From Planctomycetota bacterium (GTDB taxonomy: Bacteria; Planctomycetota; MHYJ01; JACQXL01; CAKKQI01), in the NCBI GenBank assembly GCA_030633885.1, contig DAOWBV010000006.1, positions 1 to 32,023 on the forward strand: a stretch of DNA of 32,023 nt. The letters run 5' to 3'. This document shows, one piece after another, positions 1,790 to 31,107 of this stretch. Position 1 is the first letter of the stretch. Each line of letters begins with the position of its first letter. Under the pieces are notes generated by a model. That model saw only the letters and a list, made by a program, of their open reading frames with translations, had not been told where the DNA came from and did no database searches. Both the position numbers and the translations under genes were made by a program.

Positions 1790-4465
1790 ATGAAAGATAA
1801 TCTGATCAAGCAAATACTTGACCAACGCAGGAATACTTTACCCCGGCTGTCCACACAGATGGTTTCCGATGCAGCCGAAGGCGGTTGCGGAGTTATCGGA
1901 TTTATCTCTTCGGAAAAGATCAAAGGGAAGCATGTTCTTCAAGCCTCCGAACAGATGCATAACCGGGGTAACGGTAAGGGCGGCGGGATCGCCGCGGTTG
2001 GACTAAACGCTGAACAGTTAGGCGTGCCTGAAGAGATCCTGCAGGATAATTATTTGTTGCAGATCGCTTATCTGGACCCGTCGGTCCGCGAAACGGTTGA
2101 AAATGAGTTTATTCTTCCGTATTTTACGGTTAATCATACGGCGCTGATCGCGGCGGTGTCGGATTACCGGGAAATTAAAGGGTTGGCAGTGAAGCCGCCG
2201 GATGTCTGGCGTTATTTTGTTCGGGTGAAACCGGAAACGCTGAAAGAATTTGAAACAAAATATGATAATCTGACGGGACGCGCCAGCGAAGATGAATTTA
2301 TTTATCAGAATACTTACCGGCTCAATCATAAATTTTATGCCTCGCTGGGCGAAAAACGGGCTTTTGTCGTTTCTCACGGTCGGAATATGATGGTCTTGAA
2401 GATCGTTGGTTACGCGGAAGAGGTGATTAAATATTATCAGTTGGAGGATTTGCAATCGCATCTTTGGATTGCCCATCAACGCTACCCGACTAAAGGCCGG
2501 GTTTGGCACCCGGGTGGCGCTCATCCGTTTATCGGACTTAACGAGGCCCTGATTCATAATGGTGATTTTGCTAATTATCATTCCGTTTCTGAATGTCTCA
2601 AACAGCACGGTATTGCCCCATTATTTTTGACTGACACCGAAGTCGCCGTCCTGCTTTTTGATCTCTGGAGCCGGACATATAAATATCCACTGGAATATAT
2701 TATTGAAGCCTTGGCCCCGACTACGGAACGTGATTTTGATCTGTTGCCGCTGGATAAGCAAAAGATTTACCGGGCGATCCAGGCGACGCATATTCACGGC
2801 TCACCTGATGGCCCGTGGTTTTTTATTATCGGTCGGACCGTTCCCGAAGAAAATAAAATCCAAATGATCGGCATTACGGATACATCCATGTTGCGGCCCC
2901 AGGTTTTTGCTTTAAGCGATTGGGATAATGCCCAACGTCAGATCGGGTTAATCGCTTCGGAAAAACAGGCAATCGATACGACGCTCCAGAGTTTAAAAGA
3001 AGATTATCCTGACATCTGCCCGGTAGCGGATAAATACTGGAATGCCCGGGGAGGAAGTCATACTGACGGAGGATCTTTTGTTTATACATTAAGTCAGGCT
3101 AATGGTTCGATAAAATTAAGTTGTGCTGATAAGTTCGGGCAAGAAGTTCCTTATGTGTCCGGAACCAGACCAAACAATAATGGGCGACCACTCGCCAAAG
3201 GACGAGTCCGTCCTGAGGCGGACAAAGGGTCGCAGCTACAACATTCTAAGGTAGCTGCGGGGGTTGTCCCCGCCTCAATACAAGATTTTCAATCTATCAT
3301 TAAAGACTCAGATTACCCCGCTTTATATAATGCCTTAACCCAATTAATTCAATCCGCCAAACAAGACGGGCAACAATTTACCCGGACAATCGAGACGTTA
3401 ACTTGGTTGCGGGATCATTTTTATCCGACCGGGAATAAAAAAAGAAGTTCAATCGTCGCCCTGATGGATAATTATTTAACTAACCTGTTTCAATCAATTG
3501 CCGAAATCAAGCAGAATATTAATTTGCCTTATACGTTAGTGACTCGATCTGAGGTATATGGAGACCTAAAGGTCTCCGCTACATCATCTGAGCGTGTAGC
3601 GGAAGCCTTCAGGCTTCCACTGCCGGGGTCACTGGAGGAAACCCTGGTTATCCAGGCCGATGGTTTTCCGTCGGAAGGCGATGACGGCATGTCCCGTGTC
3701 ATCGTTGAAGCGTACCGGAAAGGCTGGAAGAAATTTATTGTTTTTGGTTTAACCGGCCAGCGTTTTTGCGGCAACGGGCTCGGAACGGGTTCTGACGGTG
3801 TTCGAATAGATCTTTATGGCAGTTCCGGCGATTATACCGCTTCAGGTTTAGACGGCGCGGAAGTATATATCCATAATGCCGCGCAGGACCAGATAGGCCA
3901 GATCTTAAAACGCGGTAAGGTCGTGATCTTCGGGGATGTCGGGCAGACTTTTATGTATGGGGCCAAGGGAGGAGAAGTTTACGTGCTGGGCAACGCGGCC
4001 GGACGTCCGCTGATCGATGGGGTCGGACAACCGCGGGTATTGATCAATGGCACTTGTCTGGATTACCTGGCCGAATCTTTTATGGCTGGCGATCCGTTGG
4101 ACGACGGTGGTTTCGTGATCCTTAACGGGATAAGATTTGATGATAACGGGAAGGTTGTCGACTTGGCAACGCCCTACCCGGGCGGTAATTTGTTTTCTTT
4201 GGCGACCGGCGGAGCTATTTATGTGCGCGACCCGGAACATCAGGTGGATCAAACCCAATTACACGGTGGTCAATTTGAGCCGCTGACCGCGCAAGACTGG
4301 CAATTGATCAAACCATATCTGGAAGAAAACGAACGGTTATTCGGTATTTCGATAAACGAACATTTATTAAACGTGAATGGAGAACAAAAAAAACCCGAAG
4401 AGGTTTATCGAAAAATCACGCCGGAATTGGTTGAAATCTTACAATCGTTTACTGAGGATATGTAA
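1790..4465 (+). CDS. Fused class II glutamine amidotransferase + GXGXG (glutamate synthase alpha domain 3) protein
   Basis: GGCGVIGFISSEKIKGKHVLQASEQMHNRG and HQRYPTKGRVWHPGGAHPFIGLNEALIHNGDFANY (GATase II); C-terminal GLTGQRFCGNGLGTGSDGVRIDLYGSSGDYTASGLDGAEVYI...GDVGQTFMYGAKGGEVYVLGNAAGRPLI (GXGXG beta helix). Confidence 0.88.
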   Translation: MKDNLIKQILDQRRNTLPRLSTQMVSDAAEGGCGVIGFISSEKIKGKHVLQASEQMHNRGNGKGGGIAAVGLNAEQLGVPEEILQDNYLLQIAYLDPSVRETVENEFILPYFTVNHTALIAAVSDYREIKGLAVKPPDVWRYFVRVKPETLKEFETKYDNLTGRASEDEFIYQNTYRLNHKFYASLGEKRAFVVSHGRNMMVLKIVGYAEEVIKYYQLEDLQSHLWIAHQRYPTKGRVWHPGGAHPFIGLNEALIHNGDFANYHSVSECLKQHGIAPLFLTDTEVAVLLFDLWSRTYKYPLEYIIEALAPTTERDFDLLPLDKQKIYRAIQATHIHGSPDGPWFFIIGRTVPEENKIQMIGITDTSMLRPQVFALSDWDNAQRQIGLIASEKQAIDTTLQSLKEDYPDICPVADKYWNARGGSHTDGGSFVYTLSQANGSIKLSCADKFGQEVPYVSGTRPNNNGRPLAKGRVRPEADKGSQLQHSKVAAGVVPASIQDFQSIIKDSDYPALYNALTQLIQSAKQDGQQFTRTIETLTWLRDHFYPTGNKKRSSIVALMDNYLTNLFQSIAEIKQNINLPYTLVTRSEVYGDLKVSATSSERVAEAFRLPLPGSLEETLVIQADGFPSEGDDGMSRVIVEAYRKGWKKFIVFGLTGQRFCGNGLGTGSDGVRIDLYGSSGDYTASGLDGAEVYIHNAAQDQIGQILKRGKVVIFGDVGQTFMYGAKGGEVYVLGNAAGRPLIDGVGQPRVLINGTCLDYLAESFMAGDPLDDGGFVILNGIRFDDNGKVVDLATPYPGGNLFSLATGGAIYVRDPEHQVDQTQLHGGQFEPLTAQDWQLIKPYLEENERLFGISINEHLLNVNGEQKKPEEVYRKITPELVEILQSFTEDM
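3182..3276. repeat. Palindromic repeat element inside gltB-like CDS: two hairpin modules joined by CGCAGCTAC-N11-GTAGCTGCG, with a nested 33-nt element at 3192-3224
   Basis: GGGCGACCAC[33 nt]AAGGGTCGCAGCTAC aacattctaag GTAGCTGCGGGGGTTGTCCCCGCCTC. The outer sequences recur (inverted) at 31032-31056 and 31083-31107. Confidence 0.88.
3560..3618. repeat. Second palindromic element inside gltB-like CDS
   Basis: GGAGACCTAAAGGTCTCC GCTACA...TGTAGC GGAAGCCTTCAGGCTTCC: two perfect hairpins flanking a GCTAC/GTAGC inverted core, translated as YGDLKVSATSSERVAEAFRLP. Confidence 0.85.
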
Positions 4466-6093: not shown

Positions 6094-6679
6094 TGAAGTT
6101 GATCAGGAAATGAGTGATGATCGGGGCGACTAAACTACCTGTTGTCAGATATAACCCGCCTAACAGAAATCCCATCCCAACCGCAAAAACAGTCCAGGGA
6201 ATTAATTTTTTATTGACCGGGAAATGTAACAAGCCGAATAACAAACTGGTTATGATCAATCCCAGATGAGGTTGAATCGCTCCTCGAAAGAAGATTTCCT
6301 CTCCAACTGCGCTGAAGCCGGCCAGAATAAAGATTTGCCAGAAGGTGAGCGATCCCAGGATTTTTGCGAATTCTTCTTCCAGTAATCGGACAACCCGCAA
6401 TAATTTTGCGCTAAGCGCGGAGCAAATAACCACCCCAATTGCCGCCATGACGGCCCAGCCGAATATTCGAACGGTCTGTGGCGCAATTCGAAAAGAATCA
6501 TTTAAGGCGGTCGAACCCTGAAAAAAATAAATTCCCAGAACGCCCAGAAGGGTTAAGGTTGAATAAACGGTGATGACCAGTGGTAATAGTGAAGGAGCGG
6601 ATTTTTCCGACGGGGCTCTGTACCGATCGCTGGTACAGGGCGGGGGATCAGAAATGTGATTGTTTTCTTGGTTTTCCAA
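6026..6679 (-). CDS. CPBP family intramembrane metalloprotease
   Basis: Multi-TM; GEEIFFRGAIQ (EExxxR), LLFGLLHF and LVAPIITHFLINF motifs. 3' end overlaps the convergent pfk gene by 68 bp. Confidence 0.83.
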   Translation of the reverse strand: MENQENNHISDPPPCTSDRYRAPSEKSAPSLLPLVITVYSTLTLLGVLGIYFFQGSTALNDSFRIAPQTVRIFGWAVMAAIGVVICSALSAKLLRVVRLLEEEFAKILGSLTFWQIFILAGFSAVGEEIFFRGAIQPHLGLIITSLLFGLLHFPVNKKLIPWTVFAVGMGFLLGGLYLTTGSLVAPIITHFLINFINLFRLPANEQISSGTLDGSND

Positions 6680-11929: not shown

Positions 11930-12015
11930 AAGAACCCCGGGATCCTTCGTCCGCTTTCGGCGAACTTCCGCCGAAGGACGGGCCTGTCCTTAGGCAGGCG
12001 GGATGACCCCTCGGC
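11930..12015. repeat. Composite palindromic intergenic repeat in the thiC leader
   Basis: AAGCGAAGAACCCCGGGATCCTTCGTCC...GGCGAACTTCCGCCGAAGGACGGGCCTGTCCTTAGGCAGGCGGGATGACC; several dyads; shares sub-motifs with 3192-3224, 19181-19260 and 25782-25812. Confidence 0.7.
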
Positions 12016-13569: not shown

Positions 13570-13662
13570 GTAATTATTTAGCCGAATGAAGTAAAAGGGG
13601 GAATTTAACACACCCCTTAATCCCCTCTTATTAGAGGGGACTTCAGACGACTAAATAATTAC
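13570..13662. repeat. 93-bp inverted-repeat element between convergent genes
   Basis: GTAATTATTTAG...CTAAATAATTAC 12-bp perfect terminal arms with internal CCCCTCttattaGAGGGG hairpin. Confidence 0.8.
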
Positions 13663-19288: not shown

Positions 19289-20671
19289 TTATTCAGGGTC
19301 GATTATACCTGTGCCGTTACATTCAGCGCAATTAACATCACCCTGGCCGTTACAAGTTGGGCAAATGACTGTAAGTTCTTTAGTGCCGTCGCACTCCGGG
19401 CAGTTTATTCGTCCGGTCCCCTGGCACGCGTGGTCTTCTACTTTACCGTCTCCCTGACAAGAGGGGCATTCCTGTTGTTTGTCGCCATTACAGGTAGGGC
19501 AAGTTTGAGTAACCTGGCCGGTTGCGGCACAGATGGGACAACTTTTTGATAGCTGGCCTTGGCCGTTACAGGTGGGGCACTTTGTTTTTCGGCGAGTAGC
19601 AAAGTTTAAAGTGTGCCCTGCTCCCATACAATCAGGGCAGTCTTCAATCTGGGTGCCGGTACCGCTACAATCAGCACAGGCTTCTGTCGTTGTGCCAGTA
19701 CCCCCACAGTCCGTACAAGAAACATCTCCGTCGCCGCCACATCTCCCGCAAGTTATTTCGCCGGTGGTATCACAGTTACTGTGGTCAACAACGCCGTTTT
19801 CATCGCAATTTTCACACGGTTCGATCAGTTCACCGTCGCCTTCGCACTCTTCACAAGAGACAACGCCGTTGCCTGTGCATACAGGGCAATCAGCGGCCGG
19901 GTCCGGGTCCGGGTCCGGGTCTGGATCTGGATCCGGGCTTGGGCCTAGGTCTGGGTCCGGGTCTGGGTCTGGGTCCGGATCCGGGTCTGGGTTATTTAGT
20001 GGGGGTTGGAACGGATCAGGCGGCGGTGGTGGCGGCGGTGGCGGTGGTGGCGGCGGTGGTGGCGGGGGCGGAGCCAGTTTTAGCGGTATCTCATTAAATT
20101 TCCAATTATTAATATCATCATCTTTAGAACTATAATCTCTGTTAGCTACTGTATTCGGACCAAAGGACTCCAGATCAAAGGAAAATGTATTATTACGTCC
20201 ATGGGGTTCCCTCCAAAGCGGGTCCCCACCGGTCATAACTGTATAGTCAGCCCCGGGATTTTTATAAACGATTCGTTGATCCCAGGAATCGATCACGTAT
20301 TTTTGGTCATCAAGGTTTTTTCTTTGCAGAGTAAGAGGGGCGGTGAACTTTTTACCGACTGAATTTTTGACCAGGGAAAGTTCATCAAATCCTGTTTTTG
20401 ATCCGGTGTCCAGTTTTCGCGATAAAAAATAATAAAGATTTTGCGAACCATTATATTTGCCTTCACTGGGAGGATAAACTAGAAACTCGGCCTTGTAACT
20501 GTTAAGCGCGATTTCAAGTTTATGGATCAAAATACGAGTGGCTTTACTTTTGGCGTTGTCAGTGAATGAAGTCAAAGCAACCACGGTAATCGTGGCTAAA
20601 ATCAAAATAACGGCAAAGACGACTAACAATTCAAGCAGGGTAAAACCGGATGATTTTCGAGTAGTATTCAT
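19289..20671 (-). CDS. GspG-like prepilin/pseudopilin with poly-Pro/(PD)n stalk and CxxCxGxG zinc-finger-like repeat tail
   Basis: Prepilin N-terminus SSGFTLLELLVVFAVILILATITVVAL; pseudopilin core (SWDQRIVYKNPGADYTVMTGG); P x18; (PD)n; 14 CxxC plus 2 degenerate units with G-x-G spacing. Confidence 0.88.
   Translation of the reverse strand: MNTTRKSSGFTLLELLVVFAVILILATITVVALTSFTDNAKSKATRILIHKLEIALNSYKAEFLVYPPSEGKYNGSQNLYYFLSRKLDTGSKTGFDELSLVKNSVGKKFTAPLTLQRKNLDDQKYVIDSWDQRIVYKNPGADYTVMTGGDPLWREPHGRNNTFSFDLESFGPNTVANRDYSSKDDDINNWKFNEIPLKLAPPPPPPPPPPPPPPPPPPDPFQPPLNNPDPDPDPDPDPDPDLGPSPDPDPDPDPDPDPAADCPVCTGNGVVSCEECEGDGELIEPCENCDENGVVDHSNCDTTGEITCGRCGGDGDVSCTDCGGTGTTTEACADCSGTGTQIEDCPDCMGAGHTLNFATRRKTKCPTCNGQGQLSKSCPICAATGQVTQTCPTCNGDKQQECPSCQGDGKVEDHACQGTGRINCPECDGTKELTVICPTCNGQGDVNCAECNGTGIIDPE
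19899..19992. repeat. Hexanucleotide (GGGTCY) tandem repeat encoding (Pro-Asp)n
   Basis: Tandem gggtcc/gggtct/ggatcc units on + strand. Confidence 0.85.
20018..20071. repeat. Trinucleotide tract encoding 18 consecutive prolines (minus strand)
   Basis: 18 CCN codons read on the minus strand, mixed CCG/CCA/CCC/CCT. Confidence 0.9.
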
Positions 20672-31031: not shown

Positions 31032-31107
31032 GTAGCTGCGACCCTTGTGGTCGCCCTACCAGGTTGATAGACATAGGGATTAAAGGCGGGGCAAGCCCCG
31101 CAGCTAC
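31032..31107. repeat. Intergenic palindromic element, GTAGCTGCG...CGCAGCTAC with two internal hairpins
   Basis: GTAGCTGCGACCCTTGTGGTCGCCC ... GGCGGGGCAAGCCCCGCAGCTAC; 'empty' counterpart of the gltB-borne element at 3182-3276. Confidence 0.88.

Follow-up and report, generated by a model that had tools for sequence, protein, structure and literature searches.

Within the 32,023-nt stretch of DNA analysed here (the window), a glutamate-synthase-like gltB open reading frame (ORF) at 1790-4465 runs without a frame break through a long-loop palindromic repeat of the GTAG-tagged REP type. This repeat forms one half of the first of two in-frame REP dimers in the gene, a REP-a (filled)/REP-b dimer at 3183-3274 and a REP-c dimer at 3560-3618, and in both dimers the GTAG tags face inside (Table 1). 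The reverse complement of 3183-3239 consists of GTAGCTGCGACCCTT, an additional 33 nt (3192-3224) and GTGGTCGCC. An earlier note on this DNA had described a palindrome within a palindrome, in frame in gltB and placed between the GATase and GXGXG domains. The sequences that it quoted for the gltB element and for the copy at 31032 are exact, both palindromes prove to be multi-copy repeat families, and the placement is right, since the two domains span residues 224-294 and 654-821, respectively, with the first dimer between them. The REP-b partner at 3251-3274 and the whole of the second dimer had been missed.

Table 1. Position, strand and description of the gltB-like gene and of the repeats and module copies in the window.
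Feature	Position	Strand	Description
gltB-like gene	1790..4465	+	891 aa; GATase_6 and GXGXG domains; ORF open across both REP dimers
REP-a, filled (long-loop) form	3183..3239	-	GTAG tag; 6-bp outer stem GCGACC/GGTCGC; nested double hairpin in loop
Insert relative to 31032	3192..3224	-	33-nt double-hairpin module; 32 nt in six other filled copies
REP-b partner	3251..3274	+	GTAGCTGCGGGGGTTGTCCCCGCC; inverted heterodimer with 3183-3239, GTAG tags inside
REP-c	3560..3582	-	GTAGCGGAGACCTTTAGGTCTCC; first half of second in-frame gltB dimer
REP-c'	3596..3618	+	GTAGCGGAAGCCTTCAGGCTTCC; second half of second gltB dimer
Double-hairpin module copy, variant second hairpin	11967..11998	+	No REP around
REP-a, empty (short) form	31032..31055	+	GTAGCTGCGACCCTTGTGGTCGCC; without the 33 nt
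REP-b partner of the 31032 copy	31086..31107	-	Intergenic dimer, GTAG tags outside

The segment lengths of GltB were compared with those of 80 ortholog sequences. Judged from these sequences, the first dimer occupies a hypervariable linker that most orthologs fill otherwise and that some do without, and a net lengthening of GltB by this dimer is not shown, as the linker, at 98 residues, is close to the ortholog median of 95. The segment that contains the REP-c dimer measures 73 residues against a median of 56, a difference of 17, and one ortholog reaches 72. The AlphaFold model has very low confidence at residues 465-491 and 595-599, within the two REP-encoded stretches, as would be expected for disordered inserts, and further short segments of the model are also of low confidence. 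In the related genome G001, of the same family, gltB is present as its first 81 residues only, at a contig end. The linker region of gltB is missing from all close relatives, which leaves no direct view of the sequence in which events took place there.

REP families and RAYT-like genes

REP-a, REP-b (of the form GTAGCTGCGGGG..CCCCGC) and REP-c all consist of a GTAG tag, or a variant of it, followed by an imperfect palindrome, and are dispersed and often arranged as inverted dimers, as is the case for GTAG-tagged REPs. Counts of REP-a and of the module described below come from pattern searches of the whole 2.04-Mb genome, and counts of REPs per class from 577 kb of it. The short form of REP-a has about 50 copies in the genome and the filled form 7, with no match for reversed control patterns of either form; the recurrence of filled and short REP-a is not a matter of chance. 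When all 256 tetranucleotides were ranked by the fraction followed by a palindrome, in 325 kb of sampled sequence, GTAG came first. Pairing is the rule, with 60 of 75 REPs found in pairs and 29 of the 30 pairs joining a with b, in opposite orientation and mostly with the GTAG tags outside. Variants of REP-a occur in a few more genomes of the class, and a search of genome contigs (a set that possibly lacks the window's own genome) gave no match to the filled-REP pattern. In-frame REP-a/b dimers are present in three other large ORFs, which encode an AddB-like nuclease (contig C174), a leucyl-tRNA synthetase (C80) and a beta-propeller protein (C86). In locus coordinates, in-frame dimers of this kind were recorded at L095 11612-11677, L097 3894-3952 and L098 5259-5313, in genes for a beta-propeller protein, an AddB-like nuclease and a leucyl-tRNA synthetase.

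The earlier note had suggested looking for a REP-type transposase, and the genome does contain five Y1_Tnp (RAYT-like) genes, one of which, on contig C125, is flanked by REP-a and REP-b, and another, on C167, by REP-c repeats. The C125 protein scores 67.8 bits against the NCBIfam model REP_Tyr_transpos (REP-associated tyrosine transposase), which is under the cut-off of 80, and G001 holds a copy of the C125 REP-a/RAYT/REP-b unit in which the alignment runs from REP end to REP end and no further. The C167 gene, flanked by the same repeats that make up the second gltB dimer, is probably the RAYT of that dimer.

Taken as a host, the repeat fits a known kind, GTAG-tagged REPs with RAYT genes, and the gltB feature is a REP dimer, REPIN-like, which occupies part of the linker and keeps the frame. 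Di Nocera et al. (2013) described in-frame intragenic dimers of GTAG-tagged REPs, including dimers in recBCD genes and tRNA synthetases, and their paper (PMC3733652) shows the same combination as seen here of a GTAG tag, a short GC-rich stem, inverted heterodimers, a REP-flanked RAYT gene and in-frame dimers in recBCD-type nucleases and tRNA synthetases. The host repeat is therefore not of an unfamiliar kind, and it has nearer counterparts than the Rickettsia palindromic elements (RPE) with which the earlier note compared it. RPEs are likewise palindromic repeats that lie in frame within genes, but that paper places RPE-4 and RPE-6 among the CGTC REPs, whereas the repeats here are of the GTAG type.

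A 32-nt double hairpin with filled and empty sites

The insert in the REP-a loop is 32 nt long in six of the seven filled copies and 33 nt in gltB, where it has one extra T (CCCTTT|GTCC), so that the 33 nt of the earlier note hold for the gltB copy relative to 31032 and not as a unit length. Only the gltB copy, among the seven, lies within an ORF of at least 150 aa. The inserted module is an inverted doublet, in which a 16-nt hairpin, TCNGCCNNAGGACNGA, is followed by its reverse complement, and the family numbers about 57 copies in the genome; the pattern TCCGCCNNAGGACGGR, searched across the whole genome with 1 mismatch, yields 60 matches, compared with 2 for a control. The second unit scores at least 13 of 16 in 30 of 59 copies, as against 0.2% of random sequence, and in other module variants the second hairpin is maintained with different bases. 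The module pattern matched 2 of 59 relatives and, in a phylum-wide sample of 392 genomes, again 2; both searches gave the same two genomes, which belong to one family.

Strong hairpins are predicted for the insert region. Across 30 distinct 32-mers from the two genomes, the double-hairpin fold has 98% paired cells, with 34 cells changed on both sides, and none of 500 shuffles scored as high; these rows are related, so that the shuffle result is not a probability, though the contrast between folds on the same rows is clear. The signal is abolished when partners are slid against each other. Both hairpins are maintained through compensatory changes. A single long hairpin, the minimum-energy fold, was also considered as the conserved fold and was rejected, its covariation on the same rows being at chance.

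A genome-wide search for filled and empty sites, as the earlier note had proposed, found both. For this, the 10-nt flanks of 57 module copies were joined and searched for in the sampled genome, allowing at most 1 mismatch in 20; a limit of 3 mismatches had been uninformative, as 36 of 60 random sites were then matched. An empty counterpart was obtained for 24 of the 57 copies, compared with none of 100 random excisions, although many of the 24 fall in the same few families, so that independent events number fewer, and in a few cases one module adjoins or lies within another. The insert is 32 nt long in 16 of these 24 copies. At clean filled and empty sites no target duplication was seen, and the target sites of the module yielded no clear consensus.

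The hosts of the module are diverse. One is the REP-a loop, which occurs both filled and empty in the genome and which on C148 and C178 accommodates a variant module turned the opposite way. Other hairpins that serve as hosts are CCTCCCCC/GGGGGAGG, of which several copies are filled, GGTCGTCTT/AAGACGACC and CGCCCC. Modules also occupy a CAGGGACTTT|TAAGAGACTG site and other copies of the module and, with a match at 2 mismatches, REP-c-like and AACGACC stems. When flanks were scored for complementarity, an outer stem of at least 6 bp was found around 27 of 57 copies, a modest excess over the 7-10 or so expected. In G001, the usual location of modules is an ATCTGTG|TAATC repeat, with two more at a REP tag, and one pair of loci, L324 (filled) and L335 (empty), matches over more than 50 nt of left flank. 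The hairpin loop is thus a common host of the module and not its sole one.

Several further repeats were noted in passing. In G001, ATCTGTGTAATC repeats are found across L321-L338, several of them directly upstream of ATG codons and several with a double-hairpin module. A palindrome of the form CTCTGTACC..GGTACAGGG (window 6616-6640; L085 5590-5663) has a near-identical copy within a REP-b loop on C120, which means that nesting is not confined to the 32-nt module. At 13570-13662 of the window, two inverted arms of 23 nt enclose a CCCCTCTTATTAGAGGGG hairpin, and the arrangement looks similar to an empty form of the filled CCCCTCTT/AGAGGGG site on C229. Tandem 12-nt and 9-12-nt G-rich repeats at 19888-20071 are likely to be Gly-rich or to represent the opposite strand of a coding repeat.

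Origin of the nested repeat

Taking these data together, we consider it probable that gltB contains a REP dimer whose REP-a loop holds a smaller mobile repeat, and that this arose through the placement of dimers by RAYTs followed by a Y1-type insertion of the module. The REP dimers would have been placed and spread by the RAYTs with which they are associated, and the double hairpin would have been added later through a single-strand reaction of the IS200/IS605-like (Y1) kind, with DNA exposed in hairpin loops or in other repeats as its presumed landing sites. In gltB, the extra T would bring the insert to 33 nt and so keep the frame; such a restoration after a 32-nt insertion fits selection, in what is one case of seven. 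Tolerance of the REP-derived peptide in GltB may be due to the flexible and hypervariable nature of the linker in which it lies.

The 32-nt double hairpin itself appears to have entered several other hairpin-shaped repeats across the genome, within their loops, as a tiny mobile unit inside another. It has no tag on its unit and no RAYT that could be linked to it, which sets it apart from REPINs, and clean filled and empty sites differ by the insert alone, without the target-site duplication of a DDE-type MITE. A hairpin at each end and the absence of target duplication, which are traits of IS200/IS605-like elements, are both present, and from these end hairpins and duplication-free junctions the double hairpin looks like a non-autonomous single-strand (Y1) element. 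No enzyme could be linked to the module, and no transposase gene was found between two module halves; Y1 genes are present on five contigs, and of these C125 alone shows a match to the module, located outside the REP-flanked unit. More tentatively, the double hairpin may define a class of bacterial mobile DNA of its own, 32 nt long and without a tag, which is moved by a single-strand transposase and inserts preferentially in the exposed loops of other palindromic repeats, where it forms nested palindromes, also within coding genes.

A serious rival to insertion by a transposase, which we regard as somewhat unlikely, is that modules were swapped between palindromes by recombination or by template switching at replication. 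Hairpins promote template switching, modules often lie near or within other palindromes, some sites are compound palindromes with no simple history, and no dedicated enzyme was found; yet the junctions are clean, at about 32 nt, with no host bases lost, and the hosts share no sequence. Less probable by our estimate is a simpler account in which the long loop is a variant of the REP-a loop that arose once and was amplified together with its REP, with no separate mobile module. It would explain why the seven CTCG-type copies all sit at the same REP-a position, and GTAG REP families with loop variants of differing length are reported (PMC3733652). This account is already weakened by module copies outside REP-a, because several unrelated palindromes hold related 32-nt modules in their loops and, in G001, modules occur in a repeat that is not a hairpin; in addition, two REP-a copies hold a module in opposite orientation.

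The remaining explanations concern gltB itself. It is very unlikely that the nested structure was selected there as an RNA or DNA signal, such as an attenuator or an mRNA stabiliser, given its position in the middle of the gene, in a linker of low model confidence, the similar dimers in unrelated genes (AddB-like, LeuRS, beta-propeller protein) and the location of most copies outside ORFs, even if the predicted hairpins are strong and REPs elsewhere are reported to affect mRNA (PMC3733652). That the peptide is an ancestral GltB linker with a coincidental match to repeats agrees with the similar linker length of most orthologs (median 95 against 98 residues), but is refuted by the orthologs and by the genomic copies: the first-dimer peptide is absent from every ortholog inspected, the linker is hypervariable and short in some of them, and at the DNA level there are matches to two repeat families, which number dozens of copies. 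The same two results bear on the earlier note, which would have been contradicted by the peptide in distant orthologs or by a want of other genomic copies.

Having set out these alternatives, we return to the reading of a REP dimer that was entered by a smaller mobile module, and to its relation to known systems. The portions of PMC3733652 available to us describe loop variants of GTAG REPs and no independent nested module, whereas here several loops hold a 32-nt repeat that has other hosts too. REPINs and their RAYTs (Bertels and Rainey 2011, PMC3116915; Nunvar et al. 2010, PMC2817692) share with the present system a unit built as an inverted REP doublet and a Y1 transposase flanked by the same repeats, but the module lacks a GTAG tag and could be linked to no transposase gene. 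The insertion sequences IS1397, ISPpu9 and IS621 likewise place mobile DNA at a fixed REP position (PMC1525189); they carry genes, whereas the module is 32 nt long and has none, and ISPpu9 and ISPpu10 leave a 2-bp duplication (PMC1525189), which was not seen here. Mitochondrial double-hairpin elements, as cited in PMC2800124, likewise consist of paired hairpins, are very short and mobile-looking, and are tolerated within genes; their likeness to the module is one of form only, with no known sequence relation.

The REP part of the gltB feature is thus of the GTAG type already described, in-frame dimers included, and the nested double hairpin is its less familiar part. In open-licence papers we found no direct precedent for nested palindromes or for insertion into hairpin loops in bacteria, and no earlier description of a nested double hairpin with several hosts both filled and empty in one genome. 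Should the double hairpin prove to move by itself, few mobile DNA units proposed in bacteria would be as small, and the precision of its junctions within other hairpins, free of duplication, would point to single-strand targeting. With several hosts present in both states, filled and empty, in a single 2-Mb genome, the spread of REP-like repeats becomes directly testable, and nesting, if true, would explain both the origin of compound palindromes and their entry into a conserved enzyme without breaking it.
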